A DNA stretch of 36,020 nucleotides, taken from the IMG/VR virus record IMGVR_UViG_3300042344_000244, positions 1 to 36,020 of that record; one strand, written 5' to 3'. The notes under the pieces were generated by a model. That model saw only the letters and a list, made by a program, of their open reading frames with translations, made no database searches and was not told the DNA's origin. Position numbers and translations under genes: made by a program. How positions within the stretch are numbered: the stretch's first letter is position 1; every line of letters starts with the position of its first letter. Source of the stretch: a virus. Shown here piece after piece: positions 2,416 to 35,924 of this stretch.

Positions 2416-2841
2416 ATGGCTCTTCCCCTTCCATCTCGCGACTCGGCGTGGCACGCTACGCGCATGCCCGAGAGCCTTACCGTCACGGTTGGCATCCCAC
2501 CTCGGGTGTTGAGTCCGAACGCGCGTTGCCATTGGGCGGTCAAGGCCAAGGCCGTCAAGCGTGCGCGTGTCGAGGCGTGGGCGCAGGCGCAGATCGCCAT
2601 GCACGAAACGAACTGCAAGGGAGCGTGGAAGGCCGCGTCATGCGTCGTGCATTGGTACGCACGCGACTCGCGCAGGCGCGACCGGGACAACTGCCTGTCG
2701 AGCCTGAAGGCCACCTTTGACGGGCTGACGGACTCCGGGCTGCTAGTCGATGACAGCGGCATCACGCACCTGCCGCTGGTGCTGGCGGTCGATCCCAAGA
2801 ACCCGCGCGTGGAACTTCATCTCACACAGGAGGCCGCGTGA
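2416..2841 (+). CDS. rusA: RusA-like Holliday junction resolvase
   Basis: RusA resolvases are small dimeric, metal-dependent endonucleases that cut four-way DNA junctions during phage recombination and before packaging. The diagnostic segment is at about residues 86-113: RRRDRDNCLSSLKATFDGL with D89-x-D91-N92, K98, D102, then a D112-D113 pair, matching the acidic cluster of the family. An N-terminal beta strand (LTVTVGIPPRVLSPNARCHW) also fits. Length is 141 residues from the ATG at 2416, or 125 from the ATG at 2464, which is closer to the usual family size. GGAAG lies upstream of 2416, and no ribosome site is seen before 2464, so I keep 2416. Its stop overlaps the next start (GTGA). Confidence 0.87.
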   Translation: MALPLPSRDSAWHATRMPESLTVTVGIPPRVLSPNARCHWAVKAKAVKRARVEAWAQAQIAMHETNCKGAWKAASCVVHWYARDSRRRDRDNCLSSLKATFDGLTDSGLLVDDSGITHLPLVLAVDPKNPRVELHLTQEAA

Positions 2842-3821
2842 AGCGCAAGCCCAAGCCCAAGCCGTCGAAGAACGGCGAGATCGTGGTTCCCGGCATCAAG
2901 CGGTTCCCAGACCGCAAACGCGGCTGGAGCATCGAACACCACGGAAGCAACATCCATGTGGTCAAGGTGAAGCGTCCCACGATGGGAAACTTTGAGCAAT
3001 GGTGTCTCCTGCTCGCTGACAACCATGTTGACAGCAAGGGCGCGAACAACGAGATGACCACGCGCCTGCTAGCGCAGGCTGTCGAGCGTGATGCCGTGGT
3101 GCTTTGCATCGGCGACAGCCTCGACTTGATGCAAGGCGTAGGCGACAAGCGCGGCAGCAAGTCGGCCTTGCGTAGCACGCTGCTCTCGGACAATTACTTC
3201 GACCGGGTGATAGATCAGGCCGCTGACCTGTTCGCACCGTACGCATCGCACATCGGGATGTTGGCCCAAGGAAATCACGAGAGCGCATGGCTCCGACACC
3301 GCGAAAGCGACCCCACCGCGCATCTCGTCCGGGCCATCAAGGATCGCGCACACTCGCCAGTCGGCACGGGCGGATACGGCGGCTGGGTGAAGTGGCAGTT
3401 TGAGTTGGGCGGATGCAATTTGACCTACACCCAGCGATACCACCACGGCGGCGGCGGCGGCGCGATGATGTCATTCGGCGTGCTGGATGTTCGCCGTATG
3501 TACTCAATGATTGAGGGCGCAGACAGCATCGTGACGAGCCATCTTCACACCAGCAATGTGGTCGGCATTGCACGCGAGTTCCTGTCCACGCAGAACGGGG
3601 TCTACAAAATCGAGAAGAAGTACTGCGACTTCATCCGGGTGGGTACGACCAAGGACGGCTGGAAGGACGGTAGCCACGGCTGGGAGGTAGAGAAAAACTT
3701 TGGCCCTTCGCCGCTTCGCCAGAAGTGGGTAAGGATTTACTTGCAATGGGATGCCGCTGAAACAAACGCTGGTCGGCGCGGCGTGCCTCGCATAGCGTGG
3801 GATGTTCACGATGCACAATGA
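2838..3821 (+). CDS. Calcineurin-like metallophosphoesterase
   Basis: 327 residues starting with GTG at 2838, preceded by AGGAGG and overlapping the rusA stop. The metal-binding blocks of the calcineurin-like superfamily appear in order: D61-N-H63 (LLLADNHVDS), G92-D93-S-L-D96, G145-N146-H147-E148, H202-H203, and H235-L-H237 (SHLHTS). These ligate two metal ions for phosphodiester or phosphomonoester hydrolysis. Phage members are found among replication and recombination genes and may act on nucleotides or nucleic acid; the substrate cannot be read here. The basic, proline-rich N-terminus (KRKPKPKPSK) precedes the catalytic fold and might contact nucleic acid. A glycine run (residues 204-208) follows the HH motif. 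Confidence 0.85.
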   Translation: MKRKPKPKPSKNGEIVVPGIKRFPDRKRGWSIEHHGSNIHVVKVKRPTMGNFEQWCLLLADNHVDSKGANNEMTTRLLAQAVERDAVVLCIGDSLDLMQGVGDKRGSKSALRSTLLSDNYFDRVIDQAADLFAPYASHIGMLAQGNHESAWLRHRESDPTAHLVRAIKDRAHSPVGTGGYGGWVKWQFELGGCNLTYTQRYHHGGGGGAMMSFGVLDVRRMYSMIEGADSIVTSHLHTSNVVGIAREFLSTQNGVYKIEKKYCDFIRVGTTKDGWKDGSHGWEVEKNFGPSPLRQKWVRIYLQWDAAETNAGRRGVPRIAWDVHDAQ

Positions 3822-4113
3822 GGCGCGGCTGAAAATCAACGGGCGCAACTGGCGCGTGCGACTGGTCAAGGCCAGCGAACTGCCACGCGACCGCTTCGGA
3901 GACTGCGACCATCCGCCCGGGCCGCATCCCACCATCCGCGTGCGCCGCGACCTGCCGCAGCAGCGTTTGGCCGAAATCGTCTGCCACGAAATCCTGCATG
4001 CTGCGCTACCTTCGCTTTCCGAGGAGGCCACAACCGACGCGGCAGCCGTCCTCGGTCGTGCGCTTTTCTCTTTAGGCTGGCGCAGGAAGCCGCTACCATC
4101 CCAAAAGCCATGA
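3802..4113 (+). CDS. Small HExxH metallopeptidase-like protein
   Basis: 103 residues with H62-E63-I-L-H66 in the helix LAEIVCHEILHAALPSL, followed by acidic residues in SEEATTDAA that could supply a third ligand. This is the minimal zinc-peptidase signature. Upstream is a short beta-rich part (RLKINGRNWRVRL and HPTIRVRRDL). Compact proteins of this kind, ending in a helix such as AAVLGRALFSLGW, occur in many phages with no established role. It could be a peptidase of ImmA/IrrE or SprT type, or part of lysis, as no ordinary endolysin is visible. Starts at 3802 and 3811 are both in frame. The gene overlaps its upstream neighbour by 20 bases and its stop overlaps the next ATG. Confidence 0.65.
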   Translation: MFTMHNEARLKINGRNWRVRLVKASELPRDRFGDCDHPPGPHPTIRVRRDLPQQRLAEIVCHEILHAALPSLSEEATTDAAAVLGRALFSLGWRRKPLPSQKP

Positions 4114-32376: not shown

Positions 32377-33267
32377 ATGAAGGACACCCAGACACTCGCT
32401 AGCGCGTTGCTGGCGGCACAGAAAGCCCTGCCCAGCGTCGGCAAGGATGCGAAGAACTCATTTCACCACTACTCGTATGTGAGCGCGGAAGCGATGATCG
32501 GCGCGTGCCGAGAAGCCCTGCACGGCGCAGGCTTGACTGCCCGTAGGGCGGGATGGAAGTTCGACGGCAGCCCGGAAGGCGGAATCGTGTACAGCACATT
32601 CGTTGTAACCCACGGCTCTACCGGAGAGTCGATTACCGACGAGATTGCATGGGTTTGCGTACCGGAGAAGGGCCGCCCCATAGACAAAAGTCTTGCGGGG
32701 TGCTTGACATCCTCATTGAACTACTGGTTGCGTGATTTGCTCCTCGTTCCCCGCGAGGATGAATCCGAGATGGATCGCCGCGATGACCGAACCTACGAGC
32801 CGCGCAAGGCAGCCCCGGCCCCGGCGCGTCCGGCCTCGCGTTCGGCGCAGCAGGATGCCCCACAAGCCGCCCCGGCTCCCAAGGCCACCCCGACCCCAAC
32901 CAAGGCCAAGGAACCCGCCACAGCGGCTCCTAGCGCGTTTGGTGAGGTGCTGGCTTCCCGGCCCGCCAAGGATTGTGTGTGGCATGATGGTCTGACCGTC
33001 AAGCGCGTCGGACAGGGCAAGCCCACGGCGAAGGGCAGCATGCGCTACCCCATCTTGCTGGAAGTTGGCGGGTCGGAGCAATGGGCATCGTGCTTCGATG
33101 ACAAGGTGATGCAGGCGGCACAGGATGCGCTAGGCGGTCAGGCTGTGTCCGGCTTCGTGCAGGAAGGTCAGTACGGTTGGACGCTCTACGGCATCCGCAT
33201 CGTGCTAGAATCCGCCGAGCAGCACGCCGCGCCAGTCGCGGTCGCGGAAGATCACATTCCGTTCTGA
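32377..33267 (+). CDS. erf: ERF-family single-strand annealing protein with OB-like C-terminal domain
   Basis: 296 residues. Residues 1-135 fit the ERF recombinase family: an N-terminal helix, FHHYSYVSAEAMIGACREAL, the strand VVTHGSTGESITDEI, and KGCLTS-like SLAGCLTSSLNYWLRDLLLV. ERF proteins anneal complementary single strands in phage recombination and genome circularisation. Residues 145-185 are a Pro/Ala linker. Residues about 198-277 form a beta-rich domain (VWHDGLTVKRVG, RYPILLEVGG, YGWTLYGIRIVL) that resembles an OB fold. The last residues are E-D-H-I-P-F, like the SSB protein-interaction tip. The C-terminal part is not typical of ERF proteins. Confidence 0.85.
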   Translation: MKDTQTLASALLAAQKALPSVGKDAKNSFHHYSYVSAEAMIGACREALHGAGLTARRAGWKFDGSPEGGIVYSTFVVTHGSTGESITDEIAWVCVPEKGRPIDKSLAGCLTSSLNYWLRDLLLVPREDESEMDRRDDRTYEPRKAAPAPARPASRSAQQDAPQAAPAPKATPTPTKAKEPATAAPSAFGEVLASRPAKDCVWHDGLTVKRVGQGKPTAKGSMRYPILLEVGGSEQWASCFDDKVMQAAQDALGGQAVSGFVQEGQYGWTLYGIRIVLESAEQHAAPVAVAEDHIPF

Positions 33268-33279
33268 ACCCCCGGAAAG

Positions 33280-33338: not shown

Positions 33339-33854
33339 ATGAGCGCAATCACACGACTGTACGAAGCGAGCGGAGCCGCCCGCGAACTGGAGGCGATGCT
33401 GACCGAGGCCGACGGCGAACTGACCGCCGACATGGACGGTCACTTCGACATCCTCGCCAAGCAGGCCGAAAGCCTGCCAGCAGCGATTGACGATGTTCTT
33501 TCGCTCGTCCGCGACATCGAAGCACGGGCAGAGGCACGCAAGGCCGAGTCCGACAGGCTGAAGCAGCGAGCGCGGCGCGATGAAGCCGTCGCGGCGTGGT
33601 TCAAGAGTCAGGTGCTTCGCACGATGCAAGCCGAGGGTCTGAAGAAAATTGAGACAGCCCGCTGGCGTGCGACGGTCGCGCAGCCGGGTGGGAAGCCTGC
33701 GATGGAGATCGTCGGCGAGATCCCGCCAGAGTTCATCACCGAGAAGATTGAAATCGTGCCGGACAAGGAGGCGATCCGCGCCGCGCTTGAATCCGGCCAG
33801 ACGCTACCGTTCGCAATGTTCGTCCCCAAGCAGCCCTACCTGAAAGTGAGTTGA
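33339..33854 (+). CDS. Siphovirus Gp157-like protein
   Basis: 171 residues from the ATG at 33339, preceded by AAAGGAGA; a longer in-frame opening from 33177 overlaps the ERF gene and reads as non-coding low complexity. The plan matches Gp157 proteins: an N-terminal helix with acidic residues, a long charged coiled coil (residues about 40-90, SLPAAIDDVLSLVRDIEARAEA and LKQRARRDEAV), then MQAEGLKKIETARWRATVAQ and a short basic beta C-terminal half with V-P-D-K-E-A-I. Gp157 family members are reported in phages beside annealing proteins and have been linked to phage resistance in Streptococcus thermophilus. Here it follows ERF, as often found. Confidence 0.78.
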   Translation: MSAITRLYEASGAARELEAMLTEADGELTADMDGHFDILAKQAESLPAAIDDVLSLVRDIEARAEARKAESDRLKQRARRDEAVAAWFKSQVLRTMQAEGLKKIETARWRATVAQPGGKPAMEIVGEIPPEFITEKIEIVPDKEAIRAALESGQTLPFAMFVPKQPYLKVS

Positions 33855-33855
33855 G

Positions 33856-34164
33856 ATGTACGCAGCAGCCATTGTCATTCCAGCCGTCGAAGCAGCCCTG
33901 TCCCGCAGGGGCTTCGCGTTCCCAAGACCCGGTAGCGGCATCGGCAAGGACGCTGTAGCGGCACGCCGACTCGCCTACGACGCGCTGCACAGCCTGACGA
34001 ACGGAACGCCGAGCGGCATCGCCAAACTCATCGGCTGCACGGCCACGACTGCGCTAGTGATGCAGCAGGCAGCGGCGGGGTTCTACCGCTCGCCGGAGGA
34101 GCGGCAGGAGTGGCTAGACGAGGTGCGAGGTCTGATTGAGAGGGGAACGCAATGCGATACTTGA
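33856..34164 (+). CDS. Small protein with possible helix-turn-helix
   Basis: 102 residues starting one base after the previous stop. After a helical start (AAIVIPAVEAALSRRGF), residues about 36-72 (ARRLAYDALHSLTNGTPSGI, then AKLIGCTATTALVMQQAAAGF) read as a basic helix followed by an HTH, somewhat like the DNA-binding domain IV of DnaA. The similarity is weak and there is no DnaA signature motif. It overlaps the methyltransferase start by 13 bases. A DNA-binding role beside the replication genes is a modest inference. Confidence 0.6.
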   Translation: MYAAAIVIPAVEAALSRRGFAFPRPGSGIGKDAVAARRLAYDALHSLTNGTPSGIAKLIGCTATTALVMQQAAAGFYRSPEERQEWLDEVRGLIERGTQCDT

Positions 34165-35042
34165 GCGTGTGCAGCGGCATCGAAGCCGCGACAGTTGCGT
34201 GGGAGCCGCTTGGGTGGAAGCCTGTCGGCTTCAGCGAGATTGAACAGTTCCCGTGCGAGGTGTTGCAGCATCACTACCCAGAGACAAAGAACTACGGAGA
34301 CATGACGAAACATGAAGAATGGGACATCAAGCCCGGAACTGTCGATCTTCTGGCAGGTGGAACACCCTGCCAAGCGTTCAGCATGCTTGGCAAGCGAAGA
34401 GGACTTTCCGACCATCGTGGCAACTTGGCCCTTGTCTATCTCGGAATTGCTGCACGCTTGCAGCCTCGCTGGATCGTGTGGGAAAATGTCGTGGGTGTCT
34501 TGTCAGCAAACGGAGGACGAGACTTTGGAGCCTTCCTCCGGGCATTGGGAGACTGCGGCTATGGGTGGTGCTACCGAGTGCTTGACGCTCGGTATTTCGG
34601 AGTCGCCCAGTCCCGGCGACGAGTCTTTCTTGTGGCGTTCCGTAGAAACGGTGTTGGAGACTGGCGACCTCCCGCAGCGGTACTTCTCGACAAAAGTGGC
34701 CTGCTTGGGAATCCTGCGCCGCGACATCCGCCGGGGCATGAAATTGTCGGATGCCTTACGGCACGCTTTATGTCGCGCAGTCAATTCGGAGCCGAAGAAG
34801 GACATCTCCGAGTGCATCCAAACGGCCCACGATGGCTTGTTCCAGTAGAAATGGAGAGGCTCATGGGCTTTCCTGACGAGTACACGAACATCAAGACCTC
34901 CACAGATGCAAAGCGATGCAAGTCTCTTGGCAATTCGTGGTGCGTGCCTGTAGCCCGGTGGGTTGGCAAGCGCATTCAGATGGTTGAGGATTTGCTGTCG
35001 GCGCGGCGCGATGGCTTGCAATCCGACGCAGATCGCGGATGA
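34152..35042 (+). CDS. C5-cytosine DNA methyltransferase (Dcm-type)
   Basis: 296 residues. All main blocks of m5C methyltransferases are visible: motif I L4-S-V-C-S-G-I-E near the N-terminus, P72-C73-Q74 (catalytic Cys) in GGTPCQAFS, E111-N-V113, Q153-S-R-R-R157 and the closing G260-N-S-W block. The target-recognition region is about 160-235. Phage enzymes of this type methylate the genome against host restriction or alter gene expression. Its central and C-terminal part overlaps a long reading frame in the +1 frame (34312-34848) that resembles a known phage protein. It follows the small HTH gene with a 13-base overlap. Confidence 0.93.
   Translation: MRYLSVCSGIEAATVAWEPLGWKPVGFSEIEQFPCEVLQHHYPETKNYGDMTKHEEWDIKPGTVDLLAGGTPCQAFSMLGKRRGLSDHRGNLALVYLGIAARLQPRWIVWENVVGVLSANGGRDFGAFLRALGDCGYGWCYRVLDARYFGVAQSRRRVFLVAFRRNGVGDWRPPAAVLLDKSGLLGNPAPRHPPGHEIVGCLTARFMSRSQFGAEEGHLRVHPNGPRWLVPVEMERLMGFPDEYTNIKTSTDAKRCKSLGNSWCVPVARWVGKRIQMVEDLLSARRDGLQSDADRG
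34312..34848 (+). CDS. Overlapping ORF in the methyltransferase gene, conserved phage-type protein
   Basis: 178 residues read in the +1 frame of the methyltransferase gene. Its C-terminal part, TECLTLGISESPSPGDESF, then VETVLETGDLPQRYFSTKVA and ACLGILRRDIRRGMKLSDAL, matches what I recall of a phage protein family with the pattern T-L-x-x-S-E-x-P, S-L-S-x-I-L-E-T-G-x-V-P-Q-R-Y-F-L, A-C-x-G-I-L-R-R-A-E-x-R-G-K. The start is uncertain: ATG at 34312 has a weak GGAG 12 bases upstream, and later ATGs exist. Function unknown. Both frames look protein-like, which is why it is listed. It must be weighed against chance. Confidence 0.6.
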   Translation: MKNGTSSPELSIFWQVEHPAKRSACLASEEDFPTIVATWPLSISELLHACSLAGSCGKMSWVSCQQTEDETLEPSSGHWETAAMGGATECLTLGISESPSPGDESFLWRSVETVLETGDLPQRYFSTKVACLGILRRDIRRGMKLSDALRHALCRAVNSEPKKDISECIQTAHDGLFQ

Positions 35043-35123: not shown

Positions 35124-35924
35124 GTGAGTGTAGCGAATGCGACGAATGAAACGGATGGCACGGCCAAGGGTCGCGCACCGTGGATGCCCTTTTGGGGAAC
35201 GGACTTCATGGCCGCAACTCTGGGGTGGAGCGCAAGCGAGCGCGGCGCGTACATGATCCTGCTCTGGGCCGCGTGGGAGGGCGACGGACTTCCGAGCGAC
35301 CCGGAACGGCTGTTCAGGCTCGACCCTGACATCCGATCCGCGTGGCATCTGCTGGAGGACAAGTTCCCGGTGTACGGCGACGGCAAGAGGCGCAACCCAC
35401 GGCAGGAGCGTGAGCGCGGCGAGATGCGCGAGTCCGGCAAGCGCAACGCAGACAGGGCACGCAAGGCCGCAGCAGCACGGTGGGATGCTCCAAGCAATGC
35501 TCGTAGCAATGCTCCAGCCATGCTTGGATCATGCCAAACACAAACACAAACACATACACAATCACTATCAGAGACAGAACCAATCAGAGATACGCTCAAC
35601 GGCGTTGCCGTCGAGCATGTTTCATCCGTAAATGATCCGAAGCCGAACCGCCGAGCCACGATCCCACAGGCCGCGCTAGACGCGCTCTGGCAACGGTTCC
35701 CGCGCAAGGTGGGCCGGAAGAAGGCCATGACCCTGCTAGACAGGGCCGTGCGCGAAGTCATGGAGGACTTTGAGCATGACGAGCCGGCTGATGCGCTGAT
35801 CTGGATGGAGGAGCGGATCGACGCGCTCGCCAAGCAGCACAAGACGACCGACCCGAAGTTCATCCCGCACCCGGCGACTTGGCTAGGCCAAGGCCGCTAC
35901 CTTGACCCTGTGGAGACACCATGA
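35124..35924 (+). CDS. DUF1376 (YdaU-like) replication initiator
   Basis: 266 residues from a GTG at 35124 with CAGGAGG upstream. Residues 19-75 match DUF1376/YdaU: APWMPFWGTDFMAATLGWSA, SERGAYMILLWAAWEGDG, LPSDPERLFRL. A basic helical stretch (about 90-120) precedes a low-complexity linker (NARSNAPAMLGSC and QTQTQTHTQS), then a C-terminal domain with FPRKVGRKKAMTLLDRAV and the HPATWLGQGRY ending common to phage replication proteins. Such proteins act like lambda O in initiating replication. The linker DNA contains evenly spaced iteron-like repeats. Its stop overlaps the next gene (ATGA). Confidence 0.82.
   Translation: MSVANATNETDGTAKGRAPWMPFWGTDFMAATLGWSASERGAYMILLWAAWEGDGLPSDPERLFRLDPDIRSAWHLLEDKFPVYGDGKRRNPRQERERGEMRESGKRNADRARKAAAARWDAPSNARSNAPAMLGSCQTQTQTHTQSLSETEPIRDTLNGVAVEHVSSVNDPKPNRRATIPQAALDALWQRFPRKVGRKKAMTLLDRAVREVMEDFEHDEPADALIWMEERIDALAKQHKTTDPKFIPHPATWLGQGRYLDPVETP
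35485..35575 (+). other. Iteron-like repeats and AT/CA-rich tract, candidate replication origin
   Basis: ATGCT(C/T) occurs at 35485, 35497, 35509 and 35520, with a variant ATGCC at 35531: steps of 12, 12, 11 and 11 bp, close to one helical turn. The two inner copies extend to AGCAATGCTC (35493-35502 and 35505-35514). An AC-rich, easily melted tract (about 35534-35575) follows. This is inside the initiator gene, as the lambda origin lies inside gene O. Confidence 0.6.

Follow-up and report, generated by a model that had tools for sequence, protein, structure and literature searches.

The gene at positions 32,377 to 33,267 of the window, that is, of the whole stretch of 36,020 nucleotides of viral DNA analysed here, raises the question whether a phage annealing protein may carry in its own chain a single-strand DNA binding (SSB) type of domain together with a tail like that with which bacterial SSB proteins recruit repair enzymes. 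The features needed for the discussion are given below.

32377..33267, + strand: ERF annealase gene with predicted C-terminal OB domain and SSB-like tip; ATG start, 296 aa
32398..32757, + strand: ERF annealing core, residues 8-127 (Pfam PF04404; phrog_155)
32782..32931, + strand: flexible Pro/Ala/Lys linker, residues ~136-185, seen in the sequence; its length differs between homologues
32839..33279, + strand: portable module (late linker, OB domain and tip), delimited by DNA homology with RecT-type annealase genes (blastn)
32968..33210, + strand: predicted OB-fold domain, residues ~198-278 (AlphaFold2 model ma7499bcd22a8; Foldseek, VIA-align)
33247..33264, + strand: SSB-Ct-like tip EDHIPF, residues 291-296 (IPF invariance; low model confidence)
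33342..33854, + strand: Gp157 / Mu Gam-like end-protection protein, conserved downstream neighbour (Pfam PF05565, 5e-28; phrog_253; synteny)
35124..35924, + strand: DUF1376 primosomal/replication protein, conserved downstream neighbour (family matches; synteny)

The annealing core and its genomic setting

Residues 8-127 matched the Pfam ERF family PF04404 with an E-value of 1.7e-7 and 31.8 bits, above the curated cut-off of 25, and phrog_155 (Erf-like annealing protein) was matched at 5e-14. By the curated Pfam cut-off the protein is a member of the ERF family, and annealing activity is presumed. The initial annotation had recognised the ERF core, the Pro/Ala linker and a C-terminus reading E-D-H-I-P-F, and all three were borne out, the linker occupying residues ~136-185 and the product of the plus-strand open reading frame ending in ...VAEDHIPF*.

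The window is a 'linear' record. In its relatives the gene found at its left end comes next after that found at its right end. By this order the window resembles a near-complete genome in permuted form, which lends some weight to the absence of a separate SSB gene from it. This absence, already remarked on in the initial annotation, was confirmed within the window, in which neither a PF00436 match nor, among ORFs of 45 aa or more, a second one ending in [ILVM]PF was found.

Some further features of the gene order may be mentioned. The 327-aa ORF at 2838-3818 matched the PHROG 'DNA repair exonuclease' at 8e-13 and no Pfam family; its product is a possible resection partner of the annealase. The matches of the Dcm methylase gene (34152-35042) were split in L001, L007, L014, L015 and L028 into pieces ~400-800 nt apart, which may reflect inserted DNA or a target-recognition part of another kind. 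In L028 an additional gene (3346-3975) encoding 209 aa lies between erf and the Gp157 gene, and its product ends in SDDLPL, a near-miss of the tip.

Fold of the C-terminal domain and character of the tip

The C-domain was modelled with AlphaFold2 on a shallow alignment of 18 homologous C-domains. The model, ma7499bcd22a8, has a mean pLDDT of 75, with values of 80-87 in the folded block, and is beta-rich, with strands at residues 15-26, 37-45 and 48-54 (domain numbering), a helix at 57-65 and two further strands at 71-78 and 83-91; this b-b-b-alpha-b-b succession is the OB order. The top Foldseek matches in the PDB were SSB, PriB and RPA domains (E 2e-3 to 2e-2), VIA-align superposed domain residues 13-93 on PriB and SSB with a Z of ~9 and an rmsd of 2.2-2.6 over 76-81 residues, and RecO also appeared among the structure matches. 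Residues ~198-278 are thus predicted to form an OB fold near SSB and PriB, in agreement with the OB-like second domain proposed from the sequence, and a C-terminal fold unlike OB was not encountered. A three-helix bundle of the Red-beta type is not predicted, since the modelled OB barrel has just one helix, a short one.

At the sequence level the C-domain gave nothing significant against Pfam, PHROGs or the PDB. The PF00436 SSB family was matched neither by the full protein nor by the C-domain alone nor by anything in the whole record, and a gp2.5 / DUF2815 Pfam match was lacking for the full protein to E 1 and for the C-domain to E 10. Since the C-domain has no sequence similarity to PF00436, common descent with SSB is not claimed.

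It was found that the last ~18 residues of the model have low confidence, as is usual for a flexible or disordered tail. The IPF of the tip is shared by all 18 aligned C-domains and is kept in 21/21 non-identical genes, in which the codon changes at I (ATC/ATT) and P (CCG/CCA) are all synonymous, while the residues preceding the acidic patch are freely variable; L174, a relative from a bacterial assembly, ends in EDEIPF. Loss of the IPF, which would have told against the initial annotation, was not seen in any intact homologue found. The ERF gene at L081:3001-3891 has a C-terminal part resembling a frame-shifted L049 C-domain and has lost the tip, either as a broken gene or through a sequencing error.

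Such endings were counted across the related loci fetched, which yielded 2321 unique ORFs when a minimum length of 80 aa was set. Only 59 ended in [ILV]PF, and by inspection these comprised 47 annealases, 5 SSB genes and 7 proteins of 80-90 aa encoded directly downstream of erf. A chance origin of the tip was rejected because of the invariance of IPF and the confinement of [ILV]PF to annealases, SSBs and the small erf-downstream proteins. The residues before IPF (EDH) are less acidic than in the E. coli tail DDDIPF. Taken as a pattern, EDHIPF fits the SSB-Ct in being acidic, C-terminal, predicted to be disordered and provided with a conserved [IL]PF, and a recruiting role is predicted for it.

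It has to be considered that the OB domain could be a protein-protein adaptor or a dimerisation domain, the PF tip having no recruiting function. OB folds have many uses, protein contacts included, and the VIA-align list holds OB folds that do not act on nucleic acids, such as SilF, with scores as high as those of SSB and PriB; the fold is therefore not proof of ssDNA binding, and the OB core, with a net charge of ~0, is not strongly basic. We consider this explanation improbable, since the tip matches SSB-Ct, is seen only in annealases and SSB-type proteins and, being predicted as disordered, should have no role in the fold. On the reading preferred below, the OB domain of the window protein would bind ssDNA.

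Module exchange and the distribution of tips and SSB genes

In four related loci (L012-L015) the late linker, the OB domain and the tip are attached to a RecT/Bet core instead of an ERF core, with 86-87% protein identity to the module of the window. The RecT assignment of these cores is given by Pfam (E 2e-31 and 8e-28) and by TIGR01913. A blastn comparison of the window with L012 and L013 gave 81-83% DNA identity over the shared module, the homology with the RecT-type genes beginning within the linker (32839-32846) and ending 12 nt past the stop codon. L013-L015 moreover have the gene order of the window, namely Gp157, a small gene, Dcm, DUF1376 and then the window's left-end gene, which is 92-93% identical. 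The shared module and the same neighbours indicate that one annealing core took the place of the other at the same site, and that the linker-OB-tip module was retained. Altogether 22 unique sequences with the window-type C-domain were collected (17 ERF, 5 RecT), and the tip is present in all of them.

Since the same module and tip occur on both ERF and RecT cores, the annealing core itself is unlikely to be the partner of the tip, which on these sequence comparisons would be something else. The same observation bears on the idea that the tip, together with the OB domain, is an acidic tail gating or inhibiting the protein itself, by lying on the DNA groove of neighbouring subunits or on the core, and recruits nothing. 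Autoinhibitory or gating acidic tails have been proposed for gp2.5, gp32 and SSB. Acidic SSB C-tails can occupy their own DNA-binding site, as discussed in PMC5928155, and the spacer between OB domain and tip is short, ~12-18 residues in the aligned C-domains, as such a mechanism would favour. However, the module is unchanged on cores of two different Pfam families, and autoinhibition needs acidity rather than an exact IPF, yet IPF is invariant and the acidic positions vary; in addition, tips of the IPF type were found on a variety of OB domains and on zinc-ribbon domains. Self-inhibition of this kind is therefore regarded as unlikely.

When ERF and RecT cores were scanned more widely, several types of C-domain came to light. 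A cluster of 27 RecT sequences has a different C-domain, unrelated by BLAST to that of the window, for which an OB fold is again predicted (pLDDT 87, OB matches in the PDB); most members end in an acidic LPF tip, a tip being present in 20/27 and the remaining 7 having no PF ending. The tip was also found in most members of two more beta clusters plus a singleton, and in two of the three members of an ERF zinc-ribbon cluster. The different OB C-domains are not put forward as one family, the profile links being weak (the best one of the window family, to RecT cluster 6, was 51%). In unique sequences the tip occurs in 52/67 OB/beta C-domains vs 0/46 helical ones, and by sequence cluster, a fairer count since related sequences are not independent, in 5/10 vs 0/17 (Fisher p 0.003), the helical and OB/beta classes having been assigned by eye save for two modelled families; a blind residue-propensity score for the fold class gave p 0.012 for the association. 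The tip is absent from helical C-domains. Its association with the OB/beta class is not absolute, since 7/27 in the RecT OB cluster and several other beta C-domains have no PF ending. Among individual loci, the ERF proteins of L078, L079 and L080 combine a zinc-ribbon C-domain with a DDLPF or NDIPF ending, so that a non-OB domain carries the tip there, and those of L047, L048, L050 and L057 have beta C-domains ending in DHGMDID or GEILF, without a PF tip, which are possible variant tails.

The neighbourhood of many tipless annealases with helical C-domains was found to contain candidate SSB genes. In two of the helical ERF clusters (L067, L070-L072, L075, L077, L082-L084), a small protein with an [IL]PF tip is encoded directly downstream, its start lying at most ~11 nt from the erf stop or overlapping it, and 4/5 of the small erf-downstream proteins tested matched PHROG families of single strand DNA binding proteins. 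Those at L067:3708-3953, L075:3690-3941 and L082:3696-3968, and similar ones, have 80-90 aa, are DUF736-like as well as PHROG-SSB-like and end in DIPF. By their sequences, the small DIPF proteins appear to represent a minimal phage SSB type without a PF00436 match. Among the RecT records, 9/24 with helical or other C-domains have a PF00436 SSB gene vs 0/26 of the OB type, and seven of these nine genes sit at most ~430 nt downstream of recT; in a set of 50 records, mostly of ERF type, PF00436 had no match. Tipless annealases with a nearby SSB are also found in Lactobacillus PL-1 (SSB ending DDDLPF) and Synechococcus S-H1 (DEDVPF). This is the familiar arrangement of two neighbouring genes, which in proteins such as that of the window appear to be fused.

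A further explanation would make the tip a decoy, competing with host SSB for partners such as ExoI, RecQ or RecO and in this way blocking host repair or nucleases. The tip does resemble the SSB-Ct of many bacteria (DDDIPF), and no recombination exonuclease of the PF09588 or PF12684 families was found in the records of the window family; the product of 2838-3818, on the other side, suggests that resection may be phage-encoded. A decoy would not need to be fused to an annealase or an OB domain, and the tip would not have to be lost in phages with a separate SSB; we judge this explanation very improbable. As a general rule, the tip as a stand-in for a missing recombination exonuclease was rejected, several tip-bearing clusters having a DUF3799 nuclease and the window a candidate exonuclease.

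The C-domain of the window was not found in GenBank phage records; the YPDE C-domain of RecT and the ERF type of L054 were likewise without a match there. A scan of genome contigs with the window C-domain gave no match and one with the ERF core gave a single 3.9-kb contig in a Nitrospiraceae assembly, too little for naming a host.

Relation to known annealase-SSB systems

The reading that we prefer, and hold to be rather probable, is that this gene joins the known annealase-SSB pair in a natural fusion, with an SSB-like recruiting tail of its own. The computed domain order, tip conservation, module exchange and exclusion from helical C-domains, the modelled OB fold and the neighbouring SSB genes support the suggestion of the initial annotation that annealing and SSB-type functions are combined in one chain, in which ssDNA binding and recruitment would be the inferred parts. 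In such a protein the ERF core would anneal complementary strands, the tethered OB domain would probably hold or cover ssDNA next to the annealing ring, and the free EDHIPF tail may mimic the bacterial SSB tail and dock proteins that recognise it. Candidate host readers of SSB tails are RecO, PriA, RecQ, RecJ, primase and Pol III chi. We infer as the partner such a host reader or a phage replication protein, through which recombination intermediates could be passed to resection, priming or the restart of replication. In many relatives a separate SSB gene directly downstream would do the same job, whereas in proteins of the lambda Red-beta type the host SSB tail is instead read by a helical C-domain.

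The comparison with known systems showed likenesses to each of them. ERF annealases (PF04404; P22 Erf, phrog_155) share the N-terminal core and the recombination/replication setting with Gp157, but the named example inspected, the ERF protein of Lactobacillus PL-1, is without the OB domain and the tip and has its SSB separate, whereas the window protein has both. Bacterial SSB proteins (PF00436) have the OB fold and the C-terminal IPF tip in common with it; in the window protein, unlike these, the predicted OB domain has no family match, is fused to an annealase and is joined to the tip by a short spacer. T7 gp2.5 is an OB-fold protein with annealing activity and an acidic C-tail. There the OB protein itself anneals, while in the window protein annealing would lie in a separate ERF core (in relatives RecT), with no gp2.5-type Pfam match. 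The gp2.5 family is listed among the annealing families in PMC8093625. The erf-ssb and sak4-ssb pairs of phages resemble the window protein in combining an annealase with an acidic, -PF-tailed SSB (HK620, PMC5928155), but they are two genes, in contrast to one polypeptide whose OB domain has no detectable PF00436 similarity. The tail NDYPPF of SSB(HK620) recruits and stimulates the annealase Sak4 (PMC5928155), and erf adjoins ssb in almost 80% of cases for Firmicutes phages (PMC8093625). RecT/Red-beta proteins with a helical C-domain are alike in having a core, a flexible linker and a small C-domain tied to SSB biology. In Red-beta a three-helix bundle serves as the C-domain and binds both SSB and lambda exonuclease, the contact with SSB being required in vivo (PMC8303780), whereas the OB domain of the window carries the SSB-type tail itself. 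Helical C-domains are known to be shuffled between annealase families (PMC8093625). Earlier work has described annealase-SSB pairs, SSB tails and the shuffling of C-domains; the fusion of an OB domain and an SSB tip to ERF or RecT is apparently new, no description of it having been found in the literature searched, which excludes most subscription journals.

The occurrence of the single-chain form on two core families, and its retention through a core swap, argue directly, on genetic grounds, for a service of the SSB-type tail to the annealing reaction. It is tempting to speculate, although we are inclined to doubt so broad a generalisation, that phage annealases follow two plans for dealing with SSB-coated DNA, one in which a helical C-domain reads the SSB tail and another in which the SSB, as OB domain plus tip, is part of the chain; the second, portable between ERF and RecT, would free the annealase from matching the host SSB. 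The match of an annealase to the host SSB tail has been reported to set where the annealase works (PMC10711431). If the two plans exist, the second would imply independence from this match, a reported limit on the host range of annealases in recombineering, and OB-tip annealases could possibly be less host-dependent tools for genome editing.

One tipless cluster of helical C-domains is common to ERF and RecT cores (L062-L069, L073, L074 and L124, L126). A YqaJ exonuclease is present in 5/5 of its ERF records tested, as expected if this C-domain works like that of Red-beta.
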